Shown here: positions 17,337 to 56,902 of the stretch, one piece after another
Layout: each line of letters begins with the position of its first letter
Position numbering within the stretch: position 1 is the stretch's first letter
NCBI GenBank assembly: GCA_009829735.1
Contig: CM020620.1
Span: forward strand, 930,001 to 994,000
DNA: 64,000 nt
DNA from: Pyropia yezoensis
Taxonomy: Eukaryota; Rhodophyta; Bangiophyceae; Bangiales; Bangiaceae
Reading direction: 5' to 3'
Notes under the pieces: generated by a model
Databases searched by the model: none
Told to the model about the DNA's origin: nothing
What the model saw: only the letters and a program-made list of their open reading frames with translations
Position numbers and translations under genes: made by a program

Positions 17337-17337
17337 A

Positions 17338-21743: not shown

Positions 21744-21853
21744 ACCATTCGCCGGCACGAAACGACGAAGTGCCCATACGGCCTGGAATGGCGGCCAATC
21801 CAGGCCATAGAGGCCCTTCGGCACGCTAGGTCGGCACGATAGGTCCGTGCCGA
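21744..21853 (+). repeat. Left terminal inverted repeat
   Basis: 110 bp, inverted match to 56795-56902 with about five substitutions and a short indel. Weaker similarity continues outward to about 21712. It contains TTCGGCACG (21817), TCGGCACGA (21831) and GTGCCGA (21847). Confidence 0.85.
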
Positions 21854-21957
21854 CAATTCCAGCACACGCAGTCATGGCTCAACCAATAGGAAGCGAGAGA
21901 TTCCTTAAGTCTGGACAGCTGATTTCGGGCCGCCCCGGCGTCGATCACGTCGCCAGC

Positions 21958-22053
21958 CACGTGGGGCACGTGGCGTCCTTATTGCCGCATTACCGGGGGC
22001 ATGGCGTGCACGTGAGGCACGTGGCGGGGCGTTGCGTGCACGTGGCGCACGTG
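21958..22053. promoter_or_regulatory. Cluster of six CACGTG boxes
   Basis: CACGTG starts at 21958, 21967, 22009, 22018, 22039 and 22048: three pairs, each with a 9-bp interval, just inside the left inverted repeat and 1.3 kb upstream of the RING-like gene. A tandem GGCACGTGGC-type repeat explains the pairing. It would be a strong array for bZIP/bHLH factors. Confidence 0.7.
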
Positions 22054-23368
22054 GCTCGCCGGGCGTGCGAATCCATGGAACCGCCTCCGTGCTCAATGCT
22101 TGCTTTACAGTGCGTGCATCATGTGCATGTTCTCCGTGCGGTACGCAATATCGGGGTTGATCTGTGTGCGGACAGGGGGAGCTGGGGCGACTCGGTTTTT
22201 TCTTGCGGAAGGGGGCGGCCGGACGGGGCGGGCCAGGTGTGGGCGAGAAGGAGGGGCACGTCATTTTAGCTGGCCAGAAGCGAGCCACGGTGTATGCAAT
22301 GGCGACCGCAATGGCAAGCAGAGAGTGAGGCTCGAGGACTGTCTAGTGTAAGGGTGGCTGCAGCGGGACCTGGAGCGGTCGGCAGGGGCCGGACGTGCAA
22401 GAGGGAAAGGGGGTGGTGTCTCAGTACGGTTGGAACGGGTTCGCGTCGGCCAAATATGCATTCGCCTGCACGTCCGTCCGGCGAGCTGGGGGGTAGCCAC
22501 TGCAGGGCCATCCTCCGCGGTATCCCTGACGCTTGTCGGCACGAAGCACGAGGTCTGCACGATGCTGCCGACTGGGTTTGGGCACAATGGTGCCGAAGTG
22601 AGCACATGCACGGAGCATGTCCACCAGCACCACCCACCATTATCGGTCGTGGTGGACAGTGGAGAAAGAAGATATGAGAACAGCAAAGTTAATGTGCGCT
22701 GAAATTCAAATTCAGTTTCACTCGCATTTGTCGTGCTTGTTGATTGGAACAGATGTGCGTAGTCTGTTTGGTCGACATTTCGTTAGAATCCTGGTTGCGC
22801 GATACCGCATAGTGACGACACTGCCGACGACGTGGGCTGAACATGCTATTTCGGCGCGATACTACATCGTGACGATGTACGGCACGCCGCTGCCAAGACC
22901 AGCAGGCCGTGGCGGGCAGCATCTGATTTGCTCGCAAGGACCTCGGCCGATTTGCGCACGGATCTGCCTCGTGCGGGACTCGAACACGGCCCCACTCTGT
23001 TGTGGTGTTCCGCCCGTACGTTTCCCTGGAGCTCGTGAGTCATCTTCGGGCCGCTCTCGCAACACCACGGTCAACGGCTGCAGGCAACAAGCTAGCCAGG
23101 CAGTAGACCCCCACCCACCGGTCACTCAGGACCGGTTCATTTGTTGACACACCTGTTCACATGAAGCCCGCACGCTTTTTCCTCTGCAGTGCTGTAGGCA
23201 ATCTGCGCACACGGACGGTCCGCCGACCAGTTACCTCCACCTTCGCGGCACGTCCTCACCGTTGCACTCTCACCGCTGTGGCGCTCGCGCGGCTGTCCCC
23301 TCCAACTCCCCCATCCCTCTCACTCCGTCTTCATCTTCTCCCTTCACGAACCCCGCGGGCGCTTGAGA
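22054..23368. other. Leader region of the left gene set
   Basis: No gene supported. It holds TCGGCACGAAGCAC at 22535-22548 (shared dyad half-site) and a related TTCGGCGCGA near 22851. It probably contains the promoter of the RING-like gene. Confidence 0.45.
22535..22548. promoter_or_regulatory. Shared TCGGCACGAA motif, RING-like gene side
   Basis: A single half-site about 0.8 kb upstream of the ATG at 23369. Confidence 0.45.
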
Positions 23369-24226
23369 ATGCCTCCCCACCGACGGACGAGACGTAGCCG
23401 GCCTGACAGCGTCCGGGGGACGTCCGGACTCGTCCGACCCGCCCGACGCTCTCACCGGCTGCGCCGTCGGGAGAGCGATCAGATGGCCGCCGCGTCGTCT
23501 GCCCACGATACGGCAGTCGCTGCTGGGGGGGCCCCTGTGTCATCGCGTGCCACCCGGGCCTCGGGACGTGCGTCGTCGACCACACGGCGGGCTGTGCTGC
23601 GGACAACAGCCGAGACGCCTGCCGCCGGCTTGGCGGACACGGTGGGGACGCCCAGTGACATGGGGGACCCAGCGAATGCCAATCCTTCGGGGTCCGACGA
23701 GGGCGGAGTGGCAGCCCAGCGTCGCACGCGGTACGTGTGTGTTGACGCAGTTGTGCCGCCCTGGGCGAGGGATCTTGTCGCTGCCTCTGTCACTTCAGAT
23801 GTGGGCCCCATTTTACCGTCTGTCACTGCCGTCTTGGACGCGATGGATAGCTGGCGGTCGTCTCGGCGGGCGGGCTCAGGCGGGCCCGTCGCTCCTGCTC
23901 CACCATCCTCTACTCGCCTGCGTATTGAATACACTTACGAGGACACGGCGCTAGACTCCGCGTGGGCGGCCCCCGCGTCTGCTGGTGGTCTGGACGCCAA
24001 CCGTGACGGGGTGCCTCCGAGCGTGATGCTTCAGCTGCATCGTTTTTTCTTGAGCACGGGGGACTTGGCGGATGGAGTAGCTTGTTGTGCTATATGCTTT
24101 GACTCTTTGGGAGGGGCGAAGGAGCTGCTCCGCCTCCCATGTTGGTGCGCTTTTCACAGGGAGGAGATTGAATTGTGGCTGTCGAACCATGCGACATGCC
24201 CTGTGCATGTCACAAGGACCGTGTAG
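23369..24226 (+). CDS. RING-like zinc finger protein
   Basis: 285 residues from ATG 23369. The N-terminal 100 residues are basic and disordered. The C-terminal 45 residues read CCAICFDSLGG ... LPCWCAFHREEIELWLSNHA ... CPVH, the layout of a RING-H2 finger (C-x2-C, then C-x-C/H-x2-H, Trp-Leu, then CP). RING domains bind zinc and recruit ubiquitin-charged E2 enzymes. Two ligand positions are altered: the sixth (Cys) is Glu and the last (Cys) is His. It is therefore a variant or a finger losing function. First gene inside the left inverted repeat. A TCGGCAC-type motif lies upstream, and three more follow it at 24699-24750. Confidence 0.65.
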   Translation: MPPHRRTRRSRPDSVRGTSGLVRPARRSHRLRRRESDQMAAASSAHDTAVAAGGAPVSSRATRASGRASSTTRRAVLRTTAETPAAGLADTVGTPSDMGDPANANPSGSDEGGVAAQRRTRYVCVDAVVPPWARDLVAASVTSDVGPILPSVTAVLDAMDSWRSSRRAGSGGPVAPAPPSSTRLRIEYTYEDTALDSAWAAPASAGGLDANRDGVPPSVMLQLHRFFLSTGDLADGVACCAICFDSLGGAKELLRLPCWCAFHREEIELWLSNHATCPVHVTRTV

Positions 24227-25160: not shown

Positions 25161-28100
25161 ATGGTGCGTCCATCGGCGCGTGCGTCCGCGCAGAGCGTGC
25201 GGCGCTCCCTCCTGTCGTCCGTCGGGGCGGAACGCGCATCCGACTTGCCGTCGCCGGAGCTGGAAGAGCTGATGGAGAACCTCGAGGTGCTCGCCCATTC
25301 GAGCAAGTCGCTCACGTGGCATGTGCATCTCTCGGGGTACGACAAGGCCGGCAACGTGTTTTGGCTTCCTGTGTGGGAAGATGCCGGCGTTCTCCAGAGC
25401 CCTGCCCGCCGCGTGCGGAGCATGGTGTATCGGTTCGTCAAGAGCGGCCCGAGCATGGTGGGGACTTCGCACGCCTTGCTCTCCCGTGCGAATGCGGGAA
25501 AAGGGAGAGACTGACCGCCTCGAAGTTCTGCCGGAGTTGGACGCCCCGGTGACAAAGCCTCTCACCGGGGGGGGGGGGCGTCGGCAGGTGACAAGGCAGC
25601 GGGTGCTGAAAAGCCATTGGGGCCTGGGGCGGCGGCGCTCGCCGCTGACGATGAGGCGGCAGCGGCTCACCCTCCCACGGACGATGCAGCAGAAGCTGTC
25701 GCAGCCGCTGCGAAGGCGTCGAGGAAGGGCGGCGCTGGAGCAACAGATGTACAACCTGCCGACGCAGCTGCAGCTGCAGCAATCGCTGGTGCGAAGGCGG
25801 CCCCTACGGCCACGGGTGCACCGGCGGCGGCAAACGCGACATCGGCGGCATTTTTGTCGGCTAAGAAGGGAGCTTCGTCAATCAAGGACGGAGACAAGGG
25901 GGCTGCATCAGCGCCTGCCAGTGCTGGTGAAGCTGCTGGTGGTGCTGCTGCTGCTGCTGCCGCTGCTGCCGCGGCCGCTGCAGGCAGCTCCTCATCTTCC
26001 TCATCGCCGTCGGTGCCCGCGCCGTATTTGAGTCGTGCTTCTGTTGGCAGTAAGGCTCCCCGGCGCCAGGCTAGCAAGGTAGGCACGCGGATTGTGCTCG
26101 TCTGTCCTGTTAGCGAGCACCCACCTGAAGCTGTCTCTCCCTCGCCTGAAACATCAAAGCGCAAGCGCTGTTCGAGAATTCAAAGTGTCCCCTTACGCAC
26201 TTGCGGGCTGCGTTAACTGTGGTGTCGAAAGAGATCGCTCAAGACCTGTCAACAAGGCGAGCGCGCCTATCGCTACCGTGGTGGCCTCGGCATCCGGACT
26301 CCCGCAATGTATGGCCACTTCAAGTGGTCGTCCCGAATGAGCTTGCTGCTCTCGCAGACGGCAAGCATCGCCCATTGACGGGTGAGCAATCTGTGGTGGT
26401 TCCCACTTTCCAGGCATCACGAGCGCGTGCAACGTCGGTCGCGGAGCGGGTTGGCGACCTTCTTTTGCAAATGACCAAGGAGCCGCGTGCGCTAGATAAC
26501 GTGAGCAGTTTTTTGGATGGTCTGGATCGTGCCCTGCTGCTCAAGTCCGGGTCCTCGCGAGTGCCTCTCGTGGCTGCTATATCTGGCTATGGCGAGAAAG
26601 CACGCGATGAAGGCGCAATTGCTGGCACATTGGCGGGCGGCACGGCGGGTGCGTCGGCTGCGGGCGCGGAGGCGGCTGCGGCGGCGGTGGCGACGGAGGA
26701 CACGCCGCTTGGTGAGCGCTCTGGCGTGCGGTCGGAAGGGCCGGCGGAATTGCTGGCGGTCGAGCCGACGGACGAGGCGGCAATGGAGTCGGCGGGGGAC
26801 GTGGCGGGAGAGGCGGCAGGTGAGATGGCTCGTGACTCGGCGGGTGACTCAGTAGCCATTTAGGAGAATCCGTCCACGCGTGGCTCGGTGGCCGCGGCGG
26901 TTGTCCCGACGACCGGCTACTAAAGGAGCGCGACGACGAAAAAGGCGTCGAAATTCGCATCTTCGACAGCACGCACTGCTTTGGCAGCTGCTGCGGCCAA
27001 GCGCCGCAAGCAAGAACGAGAGAAGAGAGAGAAGGCAGTTGCGGTGCGCTCAGTCAAGGCTGCGAAAGGACCCCGTGGAAAGGGCTCTCCCCAGTCATCC
27101 GGGGCAGGGGCACAAGTCGGCTCATCCTCGCGCTCTGCACCGTTGAGTGACGGTGATGCTGCGGCTGGGGCAAATACCTCGGCGAAAGAAGACGCGCGGC
27201 AGTCTGCCACGGCTGTTGCAGCTGCAAAACGAGCAGCGGCGGGTGTGCTTCAACTTGAGTTCAAAGTGCTCTCTCCGACGAAGACGGTCAAGAAGGGCAA
27301 GCAGCCGGCTAAATCCTCCCGGCTCGCGAGGGCGAAATTTGCGGCCAGGGGCCCTTCGAAGGCGCCCCCTCGTGCGAGAACGTCATCTCAAGCAGCTGAA
27401 CAGCCTGGTGGTGCCCGGCCGACCAGTGGAAAGAGTACTGCAACAGGACGAAAGCGCATACCGCCGCTGCGAAAGCCGCCTGGGCGACCAGCATGGCATC
27501 CTCCGCAAGCCGTCGTCCACCCATCGCTTAGGGTGTTGCCAACCGCGCCCGCTTCGGCCTCACACGCAGCCGCTGATCAGGGGCCCGAGGCTCCATCGAC
27601 TGCGGGCAAGCCTCCTTCAGGAGCGGCTTCGTCCGCCGAGGCCACTGGACTGGCAGCTGCAGCCTCCTCGGTGGAAGGATTCAAGGCAGCGGTGGCGACA
27701 TCTGAGAAGGAGCCTGCCCAGCCTCCCGCGTCAATCGAGATGGCGACAGCCGCTGGACAGAAGGCCGCGGCTTCCTCACCTCGGTCCGCAACTCCAGCGT
27801 TGAGCACCTCTTCAGATGCGGCGGTCGTCCTTGCTCCCACACCCCCCACGAGGTCTGGAACCGAAGCGATAGTCGCGAGTCCTCTTGCCCGGACTGCCGC
27901 GCCGGCGGTGGCGACAGCGGCACCAGCGGCGGCCGCGCCGGTCGTGAACGCTCTATCGGCGACAGCGGCCGCTAAGGCTCCCGATGGCTCTGTGGCACAC
28001 GCGAGGACTCGGACGGCGGCCACCGGCGCCTCTGGAGAATATGGCGGCCGAAACGATTCCGACAACAGATGTCACCGGGACGGCGGCTGCACGGTCTTCG

Positions 28101-29252
28101 CAGCAAGCTGCATCGCCCCAGCAGGCCCCCACGTCCCGGTTGGCGTCAGCATCCCGACAAGGCCCTGCAGCTCGTCCGGCTCAACTAGTTGCACCGGTGG
28201 CCAACATTTCCTTTTCCGCGAACGTCCCGAAGAACGACTGAAGGCAGTTGGCAACGGCCGGAATTCAGGCAGCTACCGCTCCACCATCAAAATCGTCCGT
28301 TGAAGAGTCGGCAGAGCCTGCAGGAGAGAGTACGGTGGCTCTCGAAGCGGCTCGTGGGCTACGTACGCTGGCCCGGGTAGCGGACGCAGCTGAAGCGCGG
28401 ACGGCACCTGGCGTGGCTGCACACTCTGGCGGGGAGGCAGGCGCTCAGGACGCGCTGGGGGGTAATTCTGGGGGGGCGGAAGCACCCTCGCATACGCTGG
28501 CGGGCAAGAATACGGTTATCACTGTCAAGAAGGCTGTGAAGGCCAGGGAGGAACCTGCGGGCGCGCAAGCAGGCCTCAAGGCCGTGCTTATGTCACCGCC
28601 TACTTTGCGCAGAGGGCGCACTGCAGCGTCTTCGACAACATTGGAGGACTCGTTTTTGGTTGCAGTTGCCGCCCCAGCGAGGCACGCTGTCGTCGAGACG
28701 ACATGTGGCACTGACACGGATATGCCGACTGTATCTTCTGCTGGCTTGAAGGACGCCGAGAGAACGGCGGGAAGTGATGCTTCCGTTGACAGAGGCGACA
28801 CAGACGGCGGCGATCGTCAACGCACTCAAGGACAACAGCTTCCCGGTGCTCTTGCGGCCCCTGAGACTGCCCGTACCCTGCGCAGTGGAACGTCGCAACA
28901 GCCGGGCGTGGGCAAGCATACGACATCCGGGGCTCGCTCCGTGCACTTTGACGCGAAACTTCCTGACAGCGCCATGGAGACCCGGTCAGGGAAGACTGGC
29001 AGTGCGTCCTCCGTTGCTGATCGACCTCAATCCCCGCGCTCCCCTCGGCCTGCAAAGAGGTCGGCGCCCACAAAGACGCAGACTGCACCGCCCAAGGGCA
29101 CTGGACGGGGCTTGACATCTGCCTCCGCACCTGTCGGCGGTGAGGTCAGCACCTCCGTCGCAGGGAGAACCCGTAAGCGGCAAAAGGACGCCGAGTGTGC
29201 CTCTGAGGGAGAGCCTTCCTCTCCAATGAAGACCCGCCGTACGAAGAAATAG
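25161..29252 (+). pseudogene. Ala/Lys-rich protein of the giant element, broken
   Basis: About 1360 codons starting at ATG 25161. The first 110 residues look globular (LTWHVHLSGYDKAGNVFWLP). Most of the rest is Ala, Ser, Thr and Lys-rich with basic KRR patches, ending MKTRRTKK. A second globular patch lies at about 26300-26590 (SFLDGLDRALLL). Breaks: TGA 25512 in phase, frame change near 26200, TAG 26861, TAA near 26921, frame change near 28030, TGA 28239. The composition resembles a DNA- or chromatin-binding protein such as a linker histone, but that is inference. I recognise no family. It lies between the RING-like gene and the transposase on the same strand. Confidence 0.5.
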
Positions 29253-29804: not shown

Positions 29805-31253
29805 ATGAGCTCGTCGGGACCCGGCTCATCGGGGCACTCTACGCCTGGTGCAGAAGAGCGAGCCGCAGCACCCGCTGCTCGACCCGCGCGCTTTCAGTGC
29901 TTGCCGTCGAACTTCTTTCCTCCTTCCGAAAACCCTGACGTCACGGCAGACCGATGGAGAAAAGTGCGCCTGTTCTTCTCGGCCATGCTGGCAGAGCCAG
30001 CCCTCAACGTCTTCGGCGACTGTGACCTCGTGGATGTGCGGCTTCTAGGACATGCGTTGGCCAATGGTGTTCCGAGCTCAGAGTGGCTGGGCCTGGCGCA
30101 GGGTGTCCGCAATGTCGTCTTCGTTTGGCACTTTCTTCTGCTGGTCAAGAGGCGCATGGACGAGGATCCGCTGTTGGCGCACGCCGTTGGAGAGCTCATT
30201 CTCTTTGCTGCTTCCCGGGGCCCTGCTGCGACGGACCTGTGGGAGGCCAAGGCGTCAGAAGCCGCAAAGGAGTATCGCGCTATGTGGCAGGACACATCGG
30301 CGGAGCAGTATCAAGAGTGGGCAGCGGCCCAAGGCGTGGAGCCAGCTGTGACCCACATTGTTGGCCACGCAGCAGTCCAAGCTCGCATTCTGGAGCAAGC
30401 CGAGGAAGAGCGGACGGGTCAAGCGTGGCCAGGCCGGAAGCTGGTAAGACCTTACCCTGAGGATGCGACAGCAGTGCGAGACCGACGGAGAGCTGCACGA
30501 CGACGCCGCCGGACTCCTCGGCCCGTACAGCGTCGCCGCCGTCGTCGCCCGAACAACAGGCTGCTTACCGGACAGCAGTGCACATGGGACGCTGATATCT
30601 GCCGGCACGGGTACCCCAAGTCGCTCATTCGCGGACCGGGGGTGTTAACGTTTATGTGTGGATGTGGCTACATCATCGGGTTTGAGCTGCTAAGGGAGAC
30701 GGAGAGTCCGGCCCACCTGGTCGCAGCGCTTGCTCAGCGCTTTGTGCGGATGCCGCGAGTGGTGTAGTGCAACACTGCCTGCCAAACACAGCGTAACGCG
30801 CTTCGCTGCGTACCCTGGCTCCTGACTGAAGAGGAGGTTTCTTTCTTCATCGACCGATTCCATCAATGCGGGCACGTGTGCTCACCTGTTTTTGAGGCCG
30901 ACGAGTATCCCGAGATTTCGCGGGGACATGACACGTCAAGCGCCGAGCGGCAACACTACATCAAGAAGAAGTCCAAGTCATCCCTGACCTACATGTCACA
31001 GCACCATTTCATTGTGCGCTCAAGATACATGGCGGCGTACAACAATATTCGCGTGTCACAGAAGCGGGGAGCCATGACTAAAAGCGTTGTTGCCCGCGCG
31101 GCCAACCAGGCGCTCGTGCCGCTGGAGATCCAGCACCAGGCGGTAGAGTCATACTACCACAAGGCCATGGTGGACCGCTGCGAGGTGACGGGCTGCAAAT
31201 GCCGGGAAGGCATCCCTGCAGGTCAGTCGCTTGGCCTCGAGAAGAAGCTTTGA
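29805..31253 (+). pseudogene. KDZ-family transposase, one stop codon
   Basis: 483 codons in a single frame from ATG 29805 to TGA 31253, with one TAG at 30765-30767. Features typical of the KDZ RNase-H-like core occur in order: CGCGYIIGFELLRETESP (the C-H-G-x-x-x-G-F and ESP block), MPRVV-stop-CNTAC where the family has a hydrophobic-Tyr-Asp-x-x-Cys block, IDRFHQCGHVC (the DRFH...H.C signature), then DTSSAERQ (NTE..EQ-like) and the final helix before a Cys-rich tail (CEVTGCKC). The TAG replaces the expected Tyr, and the catalytic Asp next to it is Cys, so this copy is probably inactive. The N-terminal half before about residue 230 is unfamiliar. Confidence 0.7.
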
Positions 31254-32982: not shown

Positions 32983-33780
32983 TCAAAGCGCAGGGTGCTT
33001 GTAAGCGTCCCCATTGTTCACAAGGATCTCCTCACCTGCGGCAATGGTCTGCGTCACATACACGTACGACAAGCCGGGAACGACTAGCTGCGACGACGCC
33101 GACACAGGGTCTTGAGTCTGGTAGAAGCGAGCGTTGCTCAGGTAGTGAGGGCGGTGGTCATTAACAAGTCCCGCAGCACAGAAGGTGGCGGGGACAACCC
33201 AACACGAGCGACTGCTAGGTGACCGCGTCGCAAACGACGTCTTTGTCGCGAGCTCCGCTGCAACGAAGTAGTGGTCAAAGCGCGCCCGCCGCTGCGACCA
33301 GAAGCAGCGATCCATCCGGAGCTCCAACGACGTCTTCTGGCACACAGTTGCAGTACAGCGCAGCGCCCGAGGGAGACTGCCGGGCCCAAAAATGACGCTG
33401 TCGGCGCTAGGGGAGCTCGCGGCCGCGTCGAGGTCCTTGTACATGAGCTGTCCGAAGAAAGGCAGGATACGCTCCGTCTCAAGCAGAGGCCGCGCCGCAA
33501 ACACCCCGCGACCATGAACAGTGAACGGTGCTATAAACGTGCCGAATGCGGCAGCGTCCGCCGCCAGCAAGTCGTCCTTGTTCGTAACGTGCAGGAGGAC
33601 TTCCAGCTCTGCCTGGGTCCAGTGGTGGACAGGAACACAGTCCAGCGGCCATCCACCGCTCGCCGCGACCATCTTCGGCAGCGTCATGAGCTCTGCGACA
33701 ACCGGGGCAGAAAGGCAAGTGTATGCCGGAAGCCTCCGTGGGGGAGCCCACCCGAGGCCCGCCCGCGCTGGGCGGAACAT
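32983..33780 (-). CDS. SET-domain protein
   Basis: 265 residues from ATG 33780, uninterrupted. SET landmarks in order: GRGVFAARPLLETERILPFFGQ (the GxG and YxG-type core), then VNDHRPHYLSNARFY (variant of the NHxCxPN knot) and TIAAGEEILVNNGDAYKH (variant of the E-x-L-x-x-x-YG-x-x-Y end). SET enzymes methylate lysines, commonly on histones, using S-adenosylmethionine. The second Asn of VNNG stands where the E-x-L-x-x-x-Y block usually has its Tyr, so activity is uncertain. Minus strand, convergent with the transposase. Transposon-borne or captured host gene are both possible; its position inside the inverted repeats favours cargo. Confidence 0.75.
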   Translation of the reverse strand: MFRPARAGLGWAPPRRLPAYTCLSAPVVAELMTLPKMVAASGGWPLDCVPVHHWTQAELEVLLHVTNKDDLLAADAAAFGTFIAPFTVHGRGVFAARPLLETERILPFFGQLMYKDLDAAASSPSADSVIFGPGSLPRALRCTATVCQKTSLELRMDRCFWSQRRARFDHYFVAAELATKTSFATRSPSSRSCWVVPATFCAAGLVNDHRPHYLSNARFYQTQDPVSASSQLVVPGLSYVYVTQTIAAGEEILVNNGDAYKHPAL

Positions 33781-45440: not shown

Positions 45441-45501
45441 GCAACTACCGGTACTACTCCGATGGCGTCCTACCTGGATGCGCCGCGCCCACCGCATTAG
45501 G

Positions 45502-47740
45502 TCATCCCGCCTTCCTCCGGTTCCCGTCGTGCCGCGGATGCAGGGCTGGAGGACGCTCCCGCGGCACAGCCTCCGCGCCGGGAGTAGTACTTGGAGGCAA
45601 GGAGGGTGAGAGTCTTGGGAAAAGGGAGGAGGGAAGAGGCGGAGAGAAGGGTTGCTCGGGCGGGTGCTTGTTTTCCTTGATTGTTCCATGCTTGCATTGC
45701 GTGTTTTCCTTGATATACCCGTTCCCTTCTTCGCAATCCTCTTGTTCCGCATCCGTTGCGGGTGAGCTCGGCTCGTCCTGAGGGCCTTGATCGGTCCCGT
45801 CCTCCTGGTCCTCCTCCGAGTCTGATTCCAGGATCTTGCCGGCTCTGGCCACCGGAGTGCCCTCAATCCCGTTCCGTCGCGTATAGGCGCAGACGTCCGC
45901 GATGGGTAACCGGTTTGGGGGTTCCCAGGTATCATCTGCATGGTTAAAACCGAACCAGCGTACTCGCAGGTACAAGCGCCCGTCTCTCGAGGCATGGTCG
46001 ACAAATTTGACGTAGACGTATTCCCGGCCTTCTTTTTGGGATAGCCAGGGTACTGCGGCCCGCTTGCGCCGGGTCAAGTCCCGTTTGCTTGGCGGTGGAG
46101 CTCGGGTGACATGGTCGCTGCTCACCCGGTACGGGGAGCCATCCACGTCTAGAAGGAAGGTCCAGCCATCCGTATTCAGGATCTCATGAGGTCCATCCGT
46201 CTTAGAGTCCAGCTTCCCCCGGGTCTTGCTATGGTTGTCCACAAAAACCCAGTCGCCACCACCCAGTTCCTTGTTCTTTTCCCGGACTCCCTTGTCATAA
46301 TCCCGCTTGTATCGCTCCTGGGTCTTTGAGATTGACTCCTTGACTCTGGGAAGCAGGAGCTTCAGTTGTTCCAGGAACTCATCCTTGGCCTTGGGACCTG
46401 ACTTCAATGCAGGCTGGAGACCGTCTGGTATTCTTTCCAGGGAGAAGTTGGTCAGCCGCCTTGGGGTGACAAAGTCGAGTGGAGCGACCCCCGTTGTCCG
46501 GTGAACTCGGGAGTTGTAGGCTAGAGTGAGGACAGCCAGGAGCTCATCCCAGTCTTCTTGGTGCTCCTTCACGTAGTGCCGTAGCATATCGACTAGGGTC
46601 CGGTTGAATCGTTCCACCTGGTCGTTCGCTTGCGGGTGGTACGTCGTGGTGAACAAGTTCTTGATGCCCATCAGGTCACAGACTCCTTGGAAGAACAGGG
46701 ATGCAAACTGGGGGCCATTGTCTGTTAAGACGGAGTCTAGAGGGCCGTAGGCAGCTATCCAGTACTCGCAGAAGGCTGACGTGACATCCAGAGCCGTAAT
46801 GGTCCTCAGCGGGATTGCTCGAGTGAACTTGGAGAATCGGTCACAAATGATGATCAGGTATATCTTGCCGCTGGATGTTTCAGGTAGGGGCCCCAGGATG
46901 TCCATGCTTAAGCTTGCAAAGGGCTCCGCCGCCGGGAATAGGCGTAGCTTAGAAGTCTTCTTCCTCTGGGACAACCAGTTCCTTGCACAAGAAACACAAG
47001 CCTCCAGGTGCTTATGGACGTCGCTGGCCATGGTTTCCCAGTAGTAATGTCGTCGCATTGAAGCATACATCCGATTGATGCCAGGATGTCCGGCCTGGGG
47101 AGACGAGTGCTCCAGACGTAGGATGTCAGCTCGCAGACTTCGGGGTACGTAGACTTGAGTTGCCCCATCGAAGGGTGACACCCGTACCAGGAGTCCATCT
47201 GTAGACTCGGAGAAACGACTGTTTCGGTTCAGGTCCATTTGGTGGCGAAGCTCCAAGCATTGAGGATCCGTCAGTTGTGCCTCCAGCATCCGGTGAATGG
47301 TCACCGGTTGATGAGCTTCAGGTGTCTCATACAGGGGAGCATGCCAGCCACGTCCAACATTCGGGAGGATGAAGCAAGGTATTTCCTCCGGAATAGGACC
47401 GGTGTCGGCTGCAGGAGTCTCCAGCCGGGACATGGTGTCGGCGCAGTGGTGCTCCCTCCCTGCTCTGGTGCACACCTTGTACTTGAACTCCGAAAGGCGT
47501 AAGCGCCACCGGGCGACCCTTCCTTGGCTGCTGTCCATACATAGCAGCCACCTTAGGCTGGCGTGGTCCGTCCGGATGAGGAACTTCTGTCCTTCAAGAT
47601 ATGGACGTAACAGGAAGCAAGCCCACACGACCGCCAAGCACTCGCGCTCCGTCGTGGAATAATTCTTCTCGGCTGGAGTCAGGACGCGACTGTAGTAGCC
47701 TATCGGGAGGAAGTGCCCATCAGGTTGCTGCTGGAGTAGC
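45502..47740 (-). CDS. pol: RNase H end, integrase and chromodomain
   Basis: Long uninterrupted frame. The RNase H end comes first (LIRTDHASLRWLLCM, HHCADTMSRLE). The integrase zinc finger is HSSPQAGH ... ACVSCA. The DDE core has Asp in SMDILGPLPE, Asp in LTDNGPQFA and Glu in DQVERFNR. The GDWVFVDN C-terminal box follows, then a chromodomain (YVYVKFVDH ... LYLRVRWFGF ... DDTWEPPNRLP) and a charged tail. Integrase inserts the cDNA and the chromodomain selects the chromatin target. All catalytic residues are present. A one-base shift near 47740 separates it from RT, which is in another frame. Confidence 0.9.
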
Positions 47741-48893
47741 GAGCCCCCACCTGGACGCCACAGGCATCAGTCTCCAGAACAAACTGGCCCTCCCGTTTGG
47801 GTAACGCCAGTACTGGAGTGGTGGTCAGGCGCTTCTTGAGCTCTTCGAAGGCCGCGGTCTGCTTCTCGTCGAGCACCGGGAGTTGTGCGGGAAGCTTCTT
47901 GCTGGTGAGCTTGTTCAATGGCCGGGCAATCAGAGCATAGTCCCGTACGAACCGGCGGTAGACGTTGCACATACCCAGGAAGCTCTTGAGTTCCGTCTGG
48001 GTTTTAGGTTGCCGTGCATGCCGGACGGCCTTGATGTTCTTCTCATTGACTCGGAGCTCCCCCGGACTCAGCACGTGCCCCAGGTACTCCACCTCAGTCT
48101 CAAACAGGTGGCACTTCTCGGCCTTGAGGGTAGCTCCAGCCTTGGACAGGAGGGCCAGGACCTCTCGAAGGTGCTCCAGGTGTTCCGCTGGGGTCTTGGA
48201 GAAAACGATAATGTCATCCAGGTAGACCAAACATGTTCTCCACCTTAGCCCCGACAGGATGATGTCGATGGCTCTTTGGAAGGTGGCCGGAGCATTGTTG
48301 AGACCAAAATAAAGACGCTTGCACCGGAATAGTCCCAGGTGGCACGTGAAGTTGGTCTTGTCCTTGTCCTCGTCAGCCAGAGGGATCTGCCAGTAACCGG
48401 CATTACAATCCAGCGTCGAGAAGAGGGTGGCATCACCAAGAAAGTCGATGCAATCATCCATCCGGGGTATCGGGTATACATCCTTGACGGTCATCTTGTT
48501 CAGGCGCCTGTAGTCAACGCAGAAACGGAAGTGACCGCCAGGTTTCGGGACGACTACCACCAGGAAGGCCCACTCGCCATCAGACGGCTCGATAACATCC
48601 ATCTTGAGCATCTTGTTAACCTGCTTCTCAATCTCATCCCGGCGATGAGGTCCAGCCCGGTATGGTTGCAGGTGTACTGGCTTAGCTTCCGGCTTGAGTT
48701 GAATCCAGTGTAGAGTGGCGTCCATCTTGCCCAGCTCTCCCGACCACAGGTGCCGATATTCCTGGAGAAGCTTCTCCAGTGCCTCCTTCAAGTCGGGAGG
48801 GACATTTTCTTGTTTGACCTTCGGCATCCCGGGTGGTGCTTGTTCGGGCTTCGGAGTAGCGCTACCAGCCTGCTCTTGTTTCGGAGATACGTC
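47741..48893 (-). CDS. pol: reverse transcriptase
   Basis: Complete RT: fingers (LHWIQLKPEAKPVH, VIEPSDGEWAF), FRFCVDYRRLN, Asp in STLDCNAGYWQ, the catalytic YLDDIIVFSK and the thumb VEYLGHVLSPGEL, then the connection and start of RNase H (VLETDACGVQVG), where a frameshift follows. It copies element RNA into DNA. It is in the same frame as the protease, from which it is separated only by TAG 48894-48896. Confidence 0.9.
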
Positions 48894-49691
48894 CTAGGCC
48901 GTCAAGTTGGATGCCAGCTCTTGTTCCAGGTTCAAGAGATCTTCCTTGCTCATAGCACGGGCGGACCCCCGGTAAGGCTCTGCTGTGCCAACTCGGGCGC
49001 CCTTGGCGAGGGTTATTGGCTTCCGGCTCACGTTGACGATCAGCACCGAGAACGGGGTGTGCCATTCTACCTTCTTGTGATGTCCGTGGGCCAAATATAA
49101 CCGGTGTTTCGCCAGAAATTCCTTACGTCCGCAAATCAGGCATTGACCTGCAATCCGGGTCTTTACTTGAACCTTGGTCTCCGAGCGAGGAGGTAGGAGC
49201 ACCGGTTTGAAGAGAGTCAAGGTAGAGGGTGGGATGCGTTCCCTCTTGTTCTTGGCTACACGAACCTTGGCGTCCAGATGCTCCAATACCGGTGACACAA
49301 ACCCATGGTTGAACTGCACCTTCCCTTCTCCGGGTAGGATGCTCTTGACATGCTGCTTCTGGAAGTCCCAGCCTAGGATAAGGAGGACTGATAGGGTCTT
49401 GACTACTAGAAAGGGAAAAAGCATTGGTTCATTGTTGACATAGATGGCGACGGGAAGGCGGCCCAGCGGTCGTAGGGTTTGACCTGATGCGTCGACAATG
49501 TGGGTTTTGGTAGGCGCTCTCCAGGCATGTCGACGCCAGCCCGGAGGTAACAGGCTCTCAGTGATGACGCTTGGTCCGGCTCCCGTGTCAACCACCGGCA
49601 TAACAGCTTGGGGGAGGCTATCCCCCACACGCATACGAGCATTAATCTTGAGGTTTTCCTTACGCAGGACGAGCAAGGTCCCCTTGAACAA
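48894..49691 (-). CDS. pol: aspartic protease
   Basis: Retropepsin with active site VVDTGAGPSVI and second block LLILGWDF; 265 codons ending at TAG 48894. Removing that stop (CAG in the presumed ancestor) would join it to RT as one polyprotein. It lies in a different frame from gag, which ends at 49820. Confidence 0.85.
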   Translation of the reverse strand: MFKGTLLVLRKENLKINARMRVGDSLPQAVMPVVDTGAGPSVITESLLPPGWRRHAWRAPTKTHIVDASGQTLRPLGRLPVAIYVNNEPMLFPFLVVKTLSVLLILGWDFQKQHVKSILPGEGKVQFNHGFVSPVLEHLDAKVRVAKNKRERIPPSTLTLFKPVLLPPRSETKVQVKTRIAGQCLICGRKEFLAKHRLYLAHGHHKKVEWHTPFSVLIVNVSRKPITLAKGARVGTAEPYRGSARAMSKEDLLNLEQELASNLTA

Positions 49692-49819
49692 ACAGGGTGT
49701 CCGGGCGGCTACCAGTTGAGCAGGTAACTGCCGTCCTTTCTCCCGGCACGCAAGGGGAGAACGGGTAGAAGTACCCTGGCGTTGGAGGTTCGGGAAGACA
49801 CTTGGGGACAGCGCCTGCC

Positions 49820-51580
49820 CTACTCGTTTCCCGGGTCCGAGGAGTCCTTAGAGGTTTCGGTCTCCAGGTCAAAGTCCGTAGGAGCTTCCCTTGCCAGAGC
49901 CTCCGTGATGCTCTGTAAGGTTGCCACTCGGATTGCGTGTACCTGTGCCTTGTCCATCTTGGAGGGTGCTCGCCGGTCAGCCCAGTTGACCGCCTTTGCA
50001 AACACCAGTCCTTGACGCTTGAGTTTCTCCTGGAGGTCCTTGGGAATGGTCGGGCATTGGTAGAACATGTGGTCCTCCTTCTGGCACAGCCAGCAAGACC
50101 GGAACCGCTGGTTCTTGACCTGCTTGAGGGCGACCCGGGAAGGTTGCTCCTTAGAAACGAAGCCGCCCCACTTGTCCCCTGACCCCACGGGTGAGGCCTC
50201 GCCAACTGCAAGTACCGGTACAGGGCTATCACCTCCCTTGTACTTGTCGGGTCCGGGACGAACTCGCGACAACGGCTTGGGAGTTGATACCATGGGAGCT
50301 TGGAGGGCCTTGGCTTGCCGGTACTTGACCTGGGTGTAGGGCATCAACTGGTGGAAGGTATGTTCTTGATGTTCCTGGTTGTAGTTCTCCGCCTCCACTT
50401 GAAGATATTCAGGAAGGCCTTCCGAGAAGATCATCTTGAGCCTGTCCTCAGGGTAAACGTTGCCACAAGCCTCGCTCATCTCCCGGACACGACGGGCGAA
50501 GGCCTCTGGAGTCTCTTGTCTCTCCATGGTTGCCCGGTTCAGTCTGCCGACTGCTTTACGCAGGGAGTCCGCGTCAGCATAGTTGGACAGGAGCCAGTTG
50601 ACCGCCTCCGGATAACTCCCAACGGTACGCCCGACAATGTGTCCGGCAGAGTCTGGTAGAGCCTGTGCAAACCGCTCTTCCGCTTCTCCGGTCATGAAGT
50701 TAACCAGGAGGTAGAGAGCCTTGCCCTCGGACACATCGTTGTCATTGCATGCCTTGACAAACCGGCGCAGGAAGGCAAAGATAAGCGCCGGTCTCTTCCC
50801 GGAAAACTTAGGATGTCCCCCGAAGCTCGGCTGCATTCGCCGGTTCAGGGATGCCATCTTATTGGCCATCTTCCGGGTGTAACCTTGGTCTTGGATCTCC
50901 AGCCGGTAGTTACCCCAATACGTGACCTTGTTCAGGGTGGCATCTCCCACTTGGTGGGCAGGGAAGTCAAACTCGACTAGCCTGCGTCGGGTGGGACCGG
51001 GAGATGCATCCCAGTCATATCCCTCCTCAGAGCTGGAGGAACTGGTCTCGCTGGTGCTAGAGCGACGGCGACGACGCCGACGCCTCCGGCTACTCCGGTT
51101 CCCGGTCTTAGAGCTCCCCGCCCCATAGGATGCAAGGGGAGGAAAAGCTTGGCCGGTTCCAGGAGTCGAGATCTCAGGGAGACCCGTAGAACCAGTCACA
51201 GCGGTGCCTCTGGCACTGCTAGTGCCCACAGGAAGAGGTGTATACACCCAGCTGCCATGTGTGGGTCCAGGAGTAAACACACCAGGGGCTATCCCTGGAG
51301 GTTAAGGAGTAGAACGGACAGGAGGGAGACGTCTGCTGCGAGCGGACTCAAACGCCGTTGACCCCGGGGTGGCTCCCATAGGAGGAACAGCCGGAGGAAC
51401 GGGAGCAGGAGGTGCTTGGCCGCCTGTTGACTCCAGTCCGCTACCGGATGTCACACTCAGGTCTGCTTCACCCGTAGGGAGAACGCCGGGTTGGGCACCG
51501 TCCCCCGCGGTGACCAGGGATGCGTCAAGGGACGCGGGGTCTACCCCTTCGGGCACCGTCGTGCCAGGGAGGGTAGCCAT
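49820..51580 (-). pseudogene. gag of the second chromovirus
   Basis: Start taken at ATG 51580 (MATLPGTTVPEG). The frame is continuous to 49820 except for one TAA at 51302-51304, one C-to-T step from CAA. A disordered, Arg-rich N-terminal region precedes a classic gag domain (FSGKRPALIFAFLRRFVKAC, LYLLVNFMTGEAEERF, SEGLPEYLQVEAENY) and a CCHC knuckle, CWLCQKEDHMFYQC (CX2CX4HX4C). It forms the particle and packages RNA. Confidence 0.85.
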
Positions 51581-51767
51581 GTTGGTCTCTTGACAGCCAC
51601 AGTCCAGTTGCCTGGGTGTCCAAGGATCGCAAGACCACAAGAGAGGGGTTGGAGAGCCAGGAATGGGAATCCCGTGACCGGGTGCAAATAATTCCCAAAC
51701 CACAGAAAATGACAGAACAGGAACAACCCAACCGCTGCTCCCAAATGTCTCTTCTCAAACACTCCTA

Positions 51768-51785
51768 TCCCCTGCTGCTTCACCA
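51768..51785 (-). promoter_or_regulatory. Primer-binding site of the second chromovirus
   Basis: TGGTGAAGCAGCAGGGGA on minus, four bases inside the 5' LTR; 17 of 18 bases equal the first chromovirus site. Confidence 0.7.
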
Positions 51786-51789
51786 AATA

Positions 51790-52360
51790 TGTGGTATAAA
51801 ACTCGATCCTCTCAGACACGTGTTAATATCCCTGGGGGGAAAGGGACAGGTAACACAGAAAGGGGAACTACGAGAGTGGTATGCCTGTTGCCTCACGTGC
51901 CTGCTCGCAGAGCAAACAGATACGCACGGTAGTGCACACGGGGAAGAGGAAAGCAAACGCGCAGTTGTCTTTTTCCTGAGGGCGCGGGCCAAGGGCGCCT
52001 CGCTGTCCCTCTTAACGTGCATCTGGGGGAGCCTCGGCACGTTGGCCAGGTAGCCCCCCCATAACCCCGAGTGGCCCCGACCCGAGTCTAACCTCGTCAG
52101 GTCGGGGGCCACTATCACTACTAATTCTATTCCCACTCACTAATCTCACACTCAATTTCTCTCAAATCAAGTCCCTCACAAGTATGCAAAAACCCATCAG
52201 AAATCCCTCTCTCACGTGTGGATAGCGTAGTCCACCGCATCCCAGTGCCGGGCACGGGCCACGGCCGCCAACCATCACCACACGGCGGGCGTGTTCTGGC
52301 ACCTGGTGCCCTCTGGTTGTAGGCCCGGGTCGGCGCCAAGTCGGGGCCAGGGATGCTACA
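51790..52360 (-). repeat. 5' LTR of the second chromovirus
   Basis: 571 bp matching 42714-43284. It is followed by the target copy tgcag at 52361-52365. Confidence 0.95.
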
Positions 52361-52735
52361 TGCAGCCCCGCCCTGTTCATCGGCTTCATCGCCAGCGGCT
52401 CCGTTTGCACCATCCTCGACTACTTGGTCAATTGCACCATCTGCCGCCTCGTCGGGCGCGGGACCAGCGGCTTCGTGTGCCGCATCACCGCACGCAGGTC
52501 CAGCAGCTCCTTCTGCTCCATCACCACGCTCACCGCCTTCCCCGCGTCCTCCACCCAAATGATCAGCTCCGTCCTCGGACGCCTCGGAAAATGACTGATT
52601 CACGTCAGCGTCCACAAAAGTGTCCAACCGCCCGGCTGCCGAAACGAAGATGTCGTCCGGGTCCTCAGAGATAACGGGCGCGTCGTGAAGGAAAGAAGAG
52701 CGAGAAGGCCGCCCTCTCCGCGGTTCATCAGCCAT
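52361..52735 (-). pseudogene. SWIM-Ulp1 protein, N-terminal part (interrupted)
   Basis: 125 codons from ATG 52735 (MADEPRRGRPSRSS), acidic and Ala/Gly-rich, up to the chromovirus insertion. The frame continues in phase at 42708 once the element and one target copy are removed, so the original protein was about 1250 residues. Motif copies of the GTGCCGAA family lie 340-400 bp upstream. Confidence 0.8.
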
Positions 52736-53301: not shown

Positions 53302-54904
53302 TCAGCATAGGCTGGGATGGTCATCGGAAGTGAGTCTGTTCAAGAAGAATGGAGGGACCTGTGATATTTCCAGTGAGGAGGATGAAGAAGAAAGAAGACC
53401 AGTGTAACCTTCGGAAGGCGCACTTTGATACGAAGCGCCGACCAGACCATCGCCAGCATGGACATCTTCATACAAAACATACAAAACAACGAGGTAATCA
53501 ATGCAACGAAGACAATAAAAAATGGGTAAATTGCCGCTGGACACCACCGCCGCCATCATGGCGATGATTGCTGCGGCCCTGTGAAGTCTTGCACAGGAGT
53601 GGGCAGTGGAGATGCAGCCCAGGATATCGGCACCAGAAGTCACAGGGTGGATGGAGGGGGGGAAGAGCTGTTGAGAGCCAGTCGCCACCACACCATCCCC
53701 AGGAACTGTTAGCCCCCAATAGCGTTGGCACCGTTCTGTCTGATCACGGCGTAAGATGGGGAGAAGACAGCTTGGAGAACATCAACAGCTGCAGTCCACC
53801 CGGCGGAAGGCAAATAAGATCGCTGATAAGAAGCTGCGGACTGGTCCAGGAACGGACCGGCCTTGCTGTTGGAAATGTAGCGGCAGTGGTGCGTGGTGAG
53901 CATGAGCTGCCGTCGCTCGTGGCTCTCTTGTGTGAAGTTGAAAGGACGAACACTTTTGCACCACCCGGCAATGCTGGGTCGGGCGCCTCCGCCGGATATT
54001 GCGGCCATAGTGACCGCCGACTTGGCCGCGGGCGTGCCAATCGTGCGGATGCCGCGGCCGTTGCCGCCGCTGCCGTGCGTATGCACCGCAGTTACCGATG
54101 CCACCACCGCAAAGGAGGCCACCTCACAGGTGTAGGCGCGCATCGCCTCGGGCCAGACCGCACGGCGCGACCCGCCGCCTCCGCGAAGCGATGCTACGCG
54201 GTCAACCGGGGCCTGCTCAATGGGAACCTGCTGCACAGCCACGCCGCCTTCTTCCACGAACGGGTGATAGCCGCCGCGTCGATACCGCGGCTCAAGCTGC
54301 CGTCGCCGCCGCCGCGGTGAGCGGGTCCGCATGCAGCTGCCGCCAACGAGGCTGTCCCAGTAGCGTAGCGCGCATCGCTTCTGATAACTGCAACAAGGAT
54401 CTTCCCGTCGCCGCGTCACCCGAGGCTCAGCTGGCCTCCGGGCCGCCGTCTGCTGTAGTCGTGGTGCCGCTCCTGTGCCAGCGGCGAGGGCTGGGGCGAA
54501 TATGGCGCCGGCCAGGACAGTGGTTGAGGTCCCGATCGCCACCGCGACGGCTGTGCCATGCCTGACACGCCTCTATCTCTCATCGGTGGCCGACCGCAGC
54601 GGGCTTCCTGCTACGAAGTACCCCTGCAGCGATGCTGGGCGCAACCACCAGAAGATCTGTCCGTAGTCCATGACGCGGCGGCGGCGGTGGCCGCAGCGAC
54701 AGCGACAGCCGCGGAGACCACCGAGGTAGCCGCTGCCGAGGTGGCGGTGCCACGCAAAGGCGCCGCCGTTGCCGGCGCGCCACCGGTCGACACTCCGAAA
54801 TTTGGCGACGCTGCGGTAAAGCCCGCTGGCGTAACAACGTACGTCGCACCGCCTGCCAGGCTCGTTTCTTGAGTGTTGCGACTTCGCCCGCGCCGTGGAG
54901 ACAC
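53302..54904 (-). pseudogene. Possible membrane protein of the giant element
   Basis: Successive minus-strand frames look like one broken gene. It begins at 54904 (MSPRRGRSRNTQETS) with an Ala/Val-rich hydrophobic segment, then a QIFWWLRPASLQGYF piece, another hydrophobic segment (STTVLAGAIFAPALAAGTG), a compact middle, and a C-terminal hydrophobic stretch (AAIIAMMAAVVSS, DYLVVLYVLYEDVHAG). At least three frame changes are needed. Plus-strand frames also exist here but show no hydropathy pattern. No family recognised. It would be the outermost gene at the right end. Confidence 0.3.
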
Positions 54905-56794
54905 GCTGCGTGAGGTGCCTTTTGGGCCATCCGTGGAACAGTGCGAGTGTTGGCAAGGCCTGCCGGTTGCTTGCGAGTTGCGTGTTATCGTGCCGAAATG
55001 AGGGATGACACCAACATCACATCGCGCCGACGCGAATCACGCTCTTGCGCAAAAACGCGAATGCCCATAAAGTTCAGGGAAATGCTAAGCACAAGATCTC
55101 TGGATGAGCGTTAAAACTTCACACAGGGTTCGGGGATATGGGTACTGCATGAGCAAGAATCGGCTCGGCGAGTCTGTCCAGAAGGACTCCCTCCGGTGCC
55201 TTACGCAGCATCGTGCCGACGCCAAGGTTTGTGCCGACGGCCTGGTTTAAGGCGGTACGTGATCGCACCGCGCGCCCGACGGCGAGGCCGACAACACTGG
55301 GCCCTGTCGGCATTTCAGGGGGGGGGGGGGTCTGAGGATCCTGAGCTTCCCTGCCTGTGGACACTATGACCTCTCCCCGACGCCTTCCGCCCCTCCCCCA
55401 ATCCCCGACATGCTCCCTGCGCCGCTGCTTCCTCCGACTCCACGTCCCCCCCCGCCAACCGGCGCGGCCTCCCCCTCCGCCTCACGCACATGCGCGCCCC
55501 CCCCGCCGCGCCCACCAGCCCCCCCCCAAACCCTTTGCCGCGGCCTCCTCCGCCCCGCCCACTTACCCGCCACCAACCCCGTCGGACCTCTGTCGCCTGT
55601 TGCTGCAATCGCCGCACAACACGCACTCGACTTTTTTCTCGTCGCGGTCGGCCCCGGTCACCGGCAGAAGGGTCGCTGCCCGCGCCGCCCGCCGAGCTGC
55701 GCCAACTCCTTGCGCCGGCGGTACTCGCAGGCGCCCCTCGAAGGCGCTGCTGGCGCCGGGAAGAACGTGGCGCGCTGCCGCCGTGGCTTCTTGAGAGTAT
55801 TTTAAGCAGAGACCAGGGGTTGGAGCCCGCCCGCCGGGGCTCTGCCCCCCCCGGCCCTCCGCCTGACGAGGGGGACCTGTTGACGGTCGTGCCGGCCGTC
55901 AGAGCCATCATAGCGCGGGAGTGCGTTTTGGGAGGCGACGCAAGTGGTCGTGGCGTGCAGGAGGTACTGCAGGACGCCGGGAAGAGGCGATAGAGGAGGC
56001 ATCCACCCCGACGCTGCTGCTTCCAGCTCATCACCGGCGCAGTCCCTGCCGCCGCACCCGCAGGCCCGGAAAGTCGCTGTCGCAGCACTTCCCTTCTTTC
56101 ACGCCAGCACCCCCCAGGGACCACCCCAGCGCCTGCAAGCAGCCCCCGCGAAGCTCACCCGGACGCACGTAGTCCCCGCACCACACTTCAGACTCCAACC
56201 CGCTCCTTGTTCGCGCCCTATGCTAGCGCTCTTTCCTGTCTGGGGCCGGGCGGCGTCTTTCCTGTCTGGGGCAGGGCGGCGTCGCCAGCCCCCCCCCTCT
56301 TTCACAGTACTGATTTGATTCCGATGGCGTTTTGGCGAGCGGCGCCCGCAGCGGGCGCCGCCCCCCCTGCCCGTTGCGACAGTTGATCAGTGGCGGAAGC
56401 CGTCCGGCGGCAGCAGCCCGGCGGCAGCGCGGTACTGGCGCCCCACGCCCCCCCACCCCGTCCGACGGCGGCAACCCGGCGGCGGCGTCGTACTGGCGCC
56501 CCACGCCCCCCCACCCACATGGCAGCTCCGGGCCCCCCCCAGGGGTGCCTTGCTCACATGTGCAAAATGCACGCGGCTTCGTATAAAATACGGCGTGCAT
56601 AACCCGAGCAGTCTTAGTGGTCGCAAAAGCCACCTTACATAGAGAATGGGCCAATAGACTGGCTCGCACACAGCGCCCGTATCCATCTCTCGCCACACAA
56701 CGCGGTCAATCGGCGTGAGAAAAGCCCCGCGACCAGGTCTCGCTTGGCGAGGTCAGATCCCCCCCCCCCCTCTGGAGAGGCCGTACGGGGGCCT
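54905..56794. other. Right subterminal region
   Basis: Contains GTGCCGAAATG at 54991, GTGCCGAC at 55213 and 55231, a G run (55318-55330) and a very Pro/Arg-rich GC stretch with frames open on both strands. One plus frame (55490-55993) ends in an ordered-looking helix but is not supported enough to call. Tandem duplications lie at 56233-56284 (25-bp unit with CCTGTCTGGGG) and about 56403-56518 (about 60-bp unit with TACTGGCGCCCCACGCC). Confidence 0.4.
54988..54999. promoter_or_regulatory. GTGCCGAA motif near the right-end gene
   Basis: ATCGTGCCGAAATG-type half-site 85 bp upstream of 54904. Confidence 0.45.
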
Positions 56795-56902
56795 TCGGCA
56801 CGGATTCCGTGCCGATCTAGCGTGCCGAAGGGCCTCTATGGCCTGGATTGGCCGCCGTTCCAGGCCGTATGGGCACTTCATGGTTACGTGCCGGCGAATG
56901 GT
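56795..56902 (-). repeat. Right terminal inverted repeat
   Basis: 108 bp, inverted match to 21744-21853. Carries TCGGCACGG, GTGCCGATC and GTGCCGAAG. Weaker similarity to the left end continues to about 56944. Confidence 0.85.

Follow-up and report, generated by a model that had tools for sequence, protein, structure and literature searches.

A stretch of 64,000 nucleotides from the nori alga Pyropia yezoensis (assembly GCA_009829735.1, contig CM020620.1, positions 930,001 to 994,000; hereafter the window, to which coordinates without a contig name refer) contains at 21729–56917 one copy of a giant mobile element with inverted ends, which belongs among the DNA transposons of the Kyakuja-Dileera-Zisupton (KDZ) superfamily. 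Comparison with related proteins shows its predicted transposase to be encoded in two halves by two convergent genes, whereas the relatives make one chain. An earlier note on this DNA had regarded a transposase core and a SWIM-Ulp1 protein on separate convergent genes as unusual, and so it proves, in that the transposase is split and its relatives are single-chain; its treatment of the SWIM-Ulp1 gene as a separate piece of cargo has to be given up, because that gene carries the N-terminal half of the transposase together with the first catalytic Asp. The split can be read from the genes themselves; assembly and activity we infer, and we think it likely that the two halves complete the active site in trans.

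A transposase divided between two genes

The C-terminal half, with the second catalytic Asp and the Glu, lies on the plus strand at 29805–31250, as delimited by homolog alignments and profile comparison, and its product has the second Asp in VVYCDTACQ and the Glu in SSAERQHS. The N-terminal half, fused to Ulp1, occupies 39325–52735 on the minus strand; it comprises 1251 amino acids (aa) in the protein P0001 and is interrupted by a retrotransposon in the window. The product of this gene has a SWIM-like motif, a CxC-like cysteine cluster, the first Asp in CDGQVL (codon at 40963–40965) and then an Ulp1-type protease, whose motifs fall in the window at 39649–39660 (His), 39592–39609 (Asp, mutated to read VYNSLG) and 39457–39471 (Cys). 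The SWIM designation is presumptive, being made from the motif CxC..CxH with no Pfam match.

A search with the SWIM-Ulp1 frame recovered P0001 (1251 aa, 96% identical) and five divergent proteins of the same build (P0002–P0006), and also two long proteins without Ulp1, P0007 and P0008, of which P0008 is from Porphyra umbilicalis. In P0008 the part resembling the N-half runs on into a part resembling the plus-strand KDZ gene of the window. Protein searches gave at least 31 matches to the P0008 region and at least 49 to the plus-strand half, within the length bounds applied, and single-chain relatives are present in Pyropia, Porphyra and metagenomes. The C-half matches are 42–98% identical to L041, one of the P. 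yezoensis copies, and the N-half-Ulp1 proteins 35–96% identical to the window. Two pattern scans of viral contigs gave 73 and 9 matches, none of which was confirmed as a relative.

The relation of the halves to the single chain was established with hhalign against L049, L048 and L050, single-chain proteins that P. yezoensis itself encodes and that score 30.9, 21.7 and 29.6 bits with the KDZ profile PF18758 (cut-off 26.6, so that L048 is below it). A profile of the C-half (20 of the 49 matches) is placed on residues 307–709 of L049 (99.9%, E 3.6e-34), with the second Asp and the Glu each aligned to its counterpart, and a profile of the six N-half-Ulp1 proteins on residues 20–241 (99.05%, E 2e-18), first Asp on first Asp. 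The two placements lie next to each other without overlap, and the interval that separates them corresponds to a variable linker in the single-chain relatives; BLASTP comparison with these relatives agrees with the placement. The position of the break bears on the suggestion that the two genes are joined after transcription, by trans-splicing or protein splicing, and that the working enzyme is one chain. Such joining is compatible with the DNA sequence and would be tolerated in a variable linker; against it, the N-half gene continues past the break into Ulp1 with its catalytic motifs, and Met-Ser-Ser-Ser, a candidate start, recurs in the C-half frames of P0040 and the P. yezoensis copies. We regard joining as very unlikely.

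The catalytic residues are distributed accordingly between the two kinds of protein. By motif search, first- and second-Asp motifs occur together in 29 of the 31 single-chain proteins P0007–P0037 (P0012 ends before the second-Asp motif, and P0037 is without the first), and the first Asp is kept in all six N-half-Ulp1 proteins. Among the 49 stand-alone C-halves (P0038–P0086), the second-Asp site was located in 47, of which all but P0074 and P0083 have Asp (45 of 47), and the Glu site was located in 44 and is Glu in each. A first-Asp pattern allowing three mismatches matched two of the 49, P0054 and P0065, in both cases in low-complexity tails. It could still be argued that SWIM-Ulp1 is ordinary cargo that merely resembles a transposase and that the plus-strand gene is complete on its own, given that the C-half is the more recognisable KDZ part and that Ulp1 reportedly occurs in other transposons (Ginger and Mutator-like). 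This we hold to be highly improbable: the N-half profile falls on the N-terminal region of KDZ proteins that are single-chain, first Asp included, and the C-half alignments to such relatives start further along, after that stretch, on which ground the plus-strand gene was rejected as a complete transposase.

The KDZ-linked Pfam matches fit an assignment of the family to KDZ transposons, though weakly. The core domain PF18758 and the CxC4 domain PF18717 are both matched among its relatives, and catalytic Asp, Asp and Glu stand at KDZ-aligned places across the family, the window copy being without the second Asp; the family differs from the superfamily in that the transposase is split over two convergent genes, on opposite strands instead of in a single chain, with Ulp1 on the N-half. 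Matches to PF18717 are all below the cut-off of 26.9 bits (P0001, E 0.012; the single-chain proteins P0017, E 3.7e-5 and 24.0 bits, and P0036, E 0.031), and P0005 has none; in P0036, PF18758 and PF18717 are both matched below their cut-offs. Among the stand-alone C-halves, P0065 comes just under the PF18758 cut-off (25.7 bits, E 1.1e-5); against this, PF18758 finds no match in the window C-half, in L041, in P0040 or in any of ten further stand-alone C-halves.

The C48/Ulp1 domain is strong even in the window (E 3e-23). In P0001 it matches PF02902 at E 1.5e-26 and yeast Ulp1 (1euv) at E 8.5e-18 with His, Asp and Cys aligned, and by these comparisons the domain is a convincing relative of SUMO proteases. 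The triad is altered in the window copy, which has Asn for Asp, and P0006 ends inside the domain, before the Cys motif.

Ends, copies and gene content of the element

A repeat search of the whole window finds inverted repeats at 21734–21838 and 56808–56912, 105 nt long, 92% complementary and separated by 34,969 nt; the repeats named in the earlier note are thus real, and its figures of about 110 bp and 94% are replaced by these. Comparison of tips among copies, together with the exact ends set by the target duplication, extends the element to 21729–56917 (35,189 bp; 5′-GGTCCAGG...CCTTTACG-3′), and comparison of the flanks identifies CCCGTCG on both sides, at 21722–21728 and 56918–56924. The left terminal inverted repeat is 21729–21853 (+), with the 105-nt stretch as its ungapped core, and the right one 56795–56917 (−). 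Left ends start GGTCCAGGAAAAGTG, and right ends, taken in the inward direction, start CGTAAAGGAACCGTG; some copies depart from these by single bases. The termini can be summarized as GGTCC..TTTACG with inverted repeats of at least 105 nt.

Both ends were searched, as the earlier note had proposed, in the Pyropia yezoensis genome (107,475,971 bases in 11 contigs, of which C1, C2 and C3 measure 43.59, 34.33 and 29.39 Mb), giving 33 matches to the left end and 29 to the right, in lists that overlap. Five copies have both tips: E1, the window; E2, C1:12.69 Mb; E3, C2:31.11 Mb; E4, C1:41.49 Mb; and E5, C1:11.58 Mb. All five are flanked by an exact 7-bp duplication (CCCGTCG, GCGACGA, CCAGACT, GAACCGG and GCTTTAC). 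In a sixth end-bounded copy, E7 (C2:6.03 Mb), the right tip is present and the left end is incomplete, beginning inside the repeat. Another ten strong right ends lack a left end at a suitable position and in the right direction, and all ten are collinear with the element for 0.66–1.85 kb inward (the check covered these ten strong ends; the weaker right-end loci L025 and L026 lie outside it). They therefore resemble the termini of copies that are damaged or divergent, and the idea that the ends are stray short repeats, widespread on their own, was rejected. The joined flanks of E3, the one copy tried, were searched in the genome for an empty site and matched only the two flanks themselves. Exact ends, duplications in five of five copies and a common gene set in all six end-bounded copies confirm the window copy as a single mobile unit with a KDZ-type core, as the earlier note had held.

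The layout that it described, plus-strand genes on the left converging on minus-strand genes on the right, is likewise upheld: in the window the RING-like and KDZ genes are on the plus strand and the SET-like and SWIM-Ulp1 (N-half-Ulp1) genes on the minus strand. Genome searches with three of the frames show that in all six end-bounded copies (E1–E5 and E7) the RING-like, KDZ C-half and SET-like genes keep a constant order and constant relative strands. Reading of the expected places shows the N-half-Ulp1 gene in five of the six (E1, E2, E3, E4 and E7), and it was not found in the 5.5 kb read in E5. Some of the genes also have close copies for which the lists contain no matching pair of ends, at C1:12.13 Mb (all three genes), at C1:0.31, C2:30.76 and C3:7.85 Mb (C-half and SET-like) and at C2:11.86 Mb (N-half-Ulp1 region). 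The concern that the genes might occur in unrelated contexts is thus partly borne out, by these and by distant SET-like and RING-like relatives elsewhere, and partly answered by the joint presence of the RING-like, KDZ and SET-like genes in every end-bounded copy. An assembly error, or a rearrangement confined to a single copy, has a negligible probability as the source of the split and was rejected: nothing speaks for it beyond the damage in the window copy itself, five copies on three chromosomes have the same convergent layout, and N-half-Ulp1 proteins at 35–57% identity come from other data sets.

The full sequence of E3 (26,900 nt including flanks, 452 of them N) matches the window in five collinear blocks at 93.7–96.5%. 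E3 is without 42714–52362 and about 0.2 kb near 36 kb of the window, and carries an additional stretch of about 0.8 kb near 32.3 kb. The segment 42714–52362 (−) is a nested, non-native Ty3/gypsy long terminal repeat (LTR) retrotransposon with a weak chromodomain match, whose LTRs (42714 to about 43284 and 51790 to about 52360) are 98.6% alike over 586 aligned positions, and it sits inside the N-half-Ulp1 gene, the start of which is at 52735. The 35-kb size given in the earlier note is that of the window copy and is rejected as the native size: some 9.65 kb is a later retrotransposon, so that the native element measures about 25.5 kb. The retrotransposon also has an antisense open frame of 579 aa (43155–44891, +) without a Pfam match.

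Two of the copies have features of their own. E2 holds two SET-like gene copies 4.5 kb apart within one element copy (C1:12708514–12713852). The C-half of E3 (C2:31.12 Mb) is identical over 481 codons to that of L045 (C2:30759000–30761000), about 0.37 Mb away, while the E3 flanks occur once; recent transposition, duplication or assembly could each account for this.

The remaining genes are less readily assigned. The domains listed in the earlier note were RING-like, KDZ, SET and SWIM-Ulp1; the Ulp1 call is strong, the KDZ core has no KDZ Pfam match in the window itself but is matched in relatives, the RING and SET calls fall just below their cut-offs, and the SWIM call is based on a motif. The RING-like gene (23198–24226, +, with a candidate start codon only) reaches 26.5 bits with PF13639 (E 7.8e-6, cut-off 27.3), its cysteines beginning at 24083, and its matches in the other copies have at least one stop somewhere within their span. 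The SET-like gene (32986–33789, −) is a frame of 268 aa scoring 19.1 bits with PF00856 (E 0.0018, cut-off 22.4), and comparison with solved structures gave one weak match, to a KMT2A chain (E 0.3). Across the genome the RING-like protein has at least 40 matches, most of them 30–63% identical and outside end-bounded copies, and the SET-like protein at least 84, most of them roughly 30–50% identical and likewise outside, which makes for a large SET-like family. Both genes are accessory and may act on chromatin or protein turnover; the earlier note had conjectured that the cargo rewrites ubiquitin, SUMO and histone marks. Between the RING-like and C-half genes lies a low-complexity gene (25365–29249, +), fragmented in the window and a single open frame of 1321 aa in E3, in which the 1056 aa scanned gave no Pfam match. 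A putative open frame of doubtful coding status (36772–37668, −), 345 aa long in E3, also has no Pfam match.

Two features of the window lie outside the element. Direct repeats 93–94% alike and about 13 kb apart (4354–17699) enclose an integrase zinc-binding frame and a second frame that is weakly protease-like; they probably mark another LTR retrotransposon. About 1.3 kb beyond the element, at 58266–61106, is an open frame with an ApbE domain (E 5e-48) and a flavin-reductase-like domain (E 2.4e-9).

Condition of the copies and origin of the split

Both transposase genes are damaged in the window. In the C-half a TAG stop stands at 30765–30767 and AAC (Asn) replaces the second Asp at 30771–30773, and the N-half-Ulp1 gene has the retrotransposon interruption and the altered Asp motif of Ulp1. 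A functional pair of halves is therefore not to be expected from this copy, which would have to rely on others. The stop codon, the change of Asp to Asn and the nested element had all escaped the earlier note.

Elsewhere in the genome, open C-half frames of 569 or 586 aa are found at L041, L042 (in E4; 569 aa) and L047. The N-half-Ulp1 gene is open over 1251 aa in E7 and, over the part read, for 1189 aa in E4 (corresponding to P0001 residues 63–1251). Stops interrupt the C-half at C2:30.76 Mb, in E3, in E7, at C1:0.31 Mb and in E5, and the N-half-Ulp1 gene in E2, in E3 and at C2:11.86 Mb. The ratio of nonsynonymous to synonymous substitution rates (dN/dS) is 0.39–0.69 in 20 of 21 pairs of C-halves, the remaining pair being identical, and 0.51–0.80 in six pairs of N-halves. 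Between E1 and E3 it is 0.33 for the RING-like gene, 0.52 for the low-complexity gene and 1.08 for the SET-like gene, and 1.70 (the frame at 36772–37668), 1.05 and 0.63 for three minus-strand frames of unassigned nature. All of these ratios come from small counts, and decay in dead copies pulls them towards 1.

It may be asked whether the halves are still an enzyme at all. They could be end-binding or regulatory proteins, or relics, with single-chain KDZ transposases mobilising the family in trans, and such relatives (L044 and L048–L050) are indeed encoded in the same genome. Two more observations point the same way. First, dN/dS between copies is not strongly below 1. Second, several copies have stops in one half or the other. 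The catalytic residues, in turn, are kept across divergent halves (6/6, 45/47 and 44/44 at the three sites), and the single-chain relatives are distant, at 24–37% identity in the C-half, so that they would not be expected to recognise these ends. On balance we consider loss of enzymatic function unlikely and an active site completed by the two halves the better account.

Phylogenetic analysis separates the two architectures cleanly. In a tree of C-halves, from which sequences with too little around the second Asp were left out, a single branch with support of 100/100 divides 42 stand-alone from 31 single-chain sequences, and when three KDZ outgroup sequences are included in a smaller set (36 sequences in total) the stand-alone group again falls on one side at 100/100. 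In this second tree it adjoins the single-chain L044 at 90/78, a long-branch joining that the program warns may be false. The tree of N-halves, without P0037 and L049, divides 7 split from 32 single-chain sequences at 99/99. Since the outgroup and the neighbours are single-chain, the split state is most simply derived, and derived once. L044 itself (C3:19.44 Mb) is a single-chain KDZ frame in which a segment of about 60 aa with the first Asp is present in tandem duplicate.

One locus suggests what the ancestor may have looked like. L048+L053 (C2:13.78 Mb) is one open frame of 1137 aa with, in order, an N part, a C part and an Ulp1 domain with His and Cys motifs, the last being 28% identical to the Ulp1 of P0001. 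The giant element has the same N part, C part and Ulp1, with the C part removed from between the others and placed in a gene of its own. Because L048+L053 ends in Ulp1, a single-chain ancestor bearing Ulp1 is suggested, one that would already have ended in the protease before its middle moved out. A further long frame, L043+L054 (C1:27.32 Mb; 1105 aa), combines the N part with most of the C part and ends immediately short of where the second Asp would be expected.

Proposed mechanism and relation to known transposons

We propose that the N-half-Ulp1 and C-half proteins would bind each other and the element ends, and that the two would complete one RNase-H active site in trans. The assembled enzyme would cut at the inverted ends of 105–120 bp and insert with a 7-bp duplication, and the need for both proteins would gate mobility. 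Assembly in trans is suggested by the conservation of catalytic residues on both sides and by a split that has lasted through deep divergence. With the Ulp1 domain, deSUMOylation would be carried to the cutting complex, which is plausible given how convincing a relative of SUMO proteases that domain is. Taken as a whole, the proposal of a natural split Asp-Asp-Glu (DDE)/RNase-H transposase, tethered to a SUMO protease, needing both proteins, and of single origin from a single-chain KDZ ancestor possibly ending in Ulp1, seems to us somewhat more probable than its negation.

An AlphaFold model of the single-chain protein P0010 places the first Asp at the end of the first of three strands (362–382), the second Asp just after a strand (831–834) and the Glu in a helix (892–908), all at low confidence (about 40–60 in the catalytic blocks; mean predicted local distance difference test score 65.6, predicted template modelling score 0.43). 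This is the order of elements expected of the RNase-H fold. Comparison of this weak model with solved structures listed no clear RNase-H protein, a negative that carries no weight at such confidence.

The P element and hAT transposases also have an RNase-H fold that is interrupted, by a long segment within one protein, whereas the parts in the nori element are separate proteins. To our knowledge, cut-and-paste transposases have the catalytic triad in one protein fold, and the titles and abstract openings listed for open-licence literature yielded no report of a natural DDE transposase split over two genes. Ulp1 is likewise present in other elements: a study of Ginger transposons reportedly describes the protease in cut-and-paste transposons, and Mutator-like transposons can carry it. 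Both belong to other transposase families, and in neither do we know of Ulp1 joined to half of a split catalytic domain.

From the portions of two papers available, giant KDZ elements with extra genes and 7-bp duplications in Kyakuja are already known (PMC12477816, PMC12730594). In the available text of the first, giant KDZ elements reach 30.3 kb in Ectocarpus and 31.7 kb in Chlamydomonas, and the Ectocarpus families have nested insertions, extra genes and transposase genes that are often pseudogenised (PMC12477816). The nori element is like both in its giant size and like the Ectocarpus families in nested insertion, extra genes and a damaged transposase; it differs in the split, of which that text makes no mention (PMC12477816). 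Giant multi-gene EnSpm/CACTA transposons have been described in red algae, according to the accessible parts of two reports (PMC12477816, PMC6431247), and these too are large and carry several genes but belong to another transposase superfamily. As regards target duplications, the portion available of the second paper gives 7 bp for two Kyakuja families of Laccaria, with CA..TG ends and no inverted repeats, and 8 bp for Zisupton and a described Dileera family (PMC12730594). The nori element shares the 7-bp length, in five of five copies, with the two Kyakuja families and differs in it from Zisupton and from that Dileera family (PMC12730594); its long inverted repeats and GGTCC..TTTACG termini set it apart from the two Laccaria families, which on that partial evidence perhaps do not stand for all Kyakuja.

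The element adds a well-bounded giant KDZ family to the red algae, a group in which, as far as the available portions of the reports go, giant EnSpm elements alone were reported (PMC12477816, PMC6431247). With Ulp1 attached to one half, a connection between SUMO and transposition can be put to a direct test. If the proposal is true, an RNase-H fold can be completed in trans across two proteins, and the family would exemplify a natural two-key control of mobility, which might also be a model for conditional genome-engineering enzymes.

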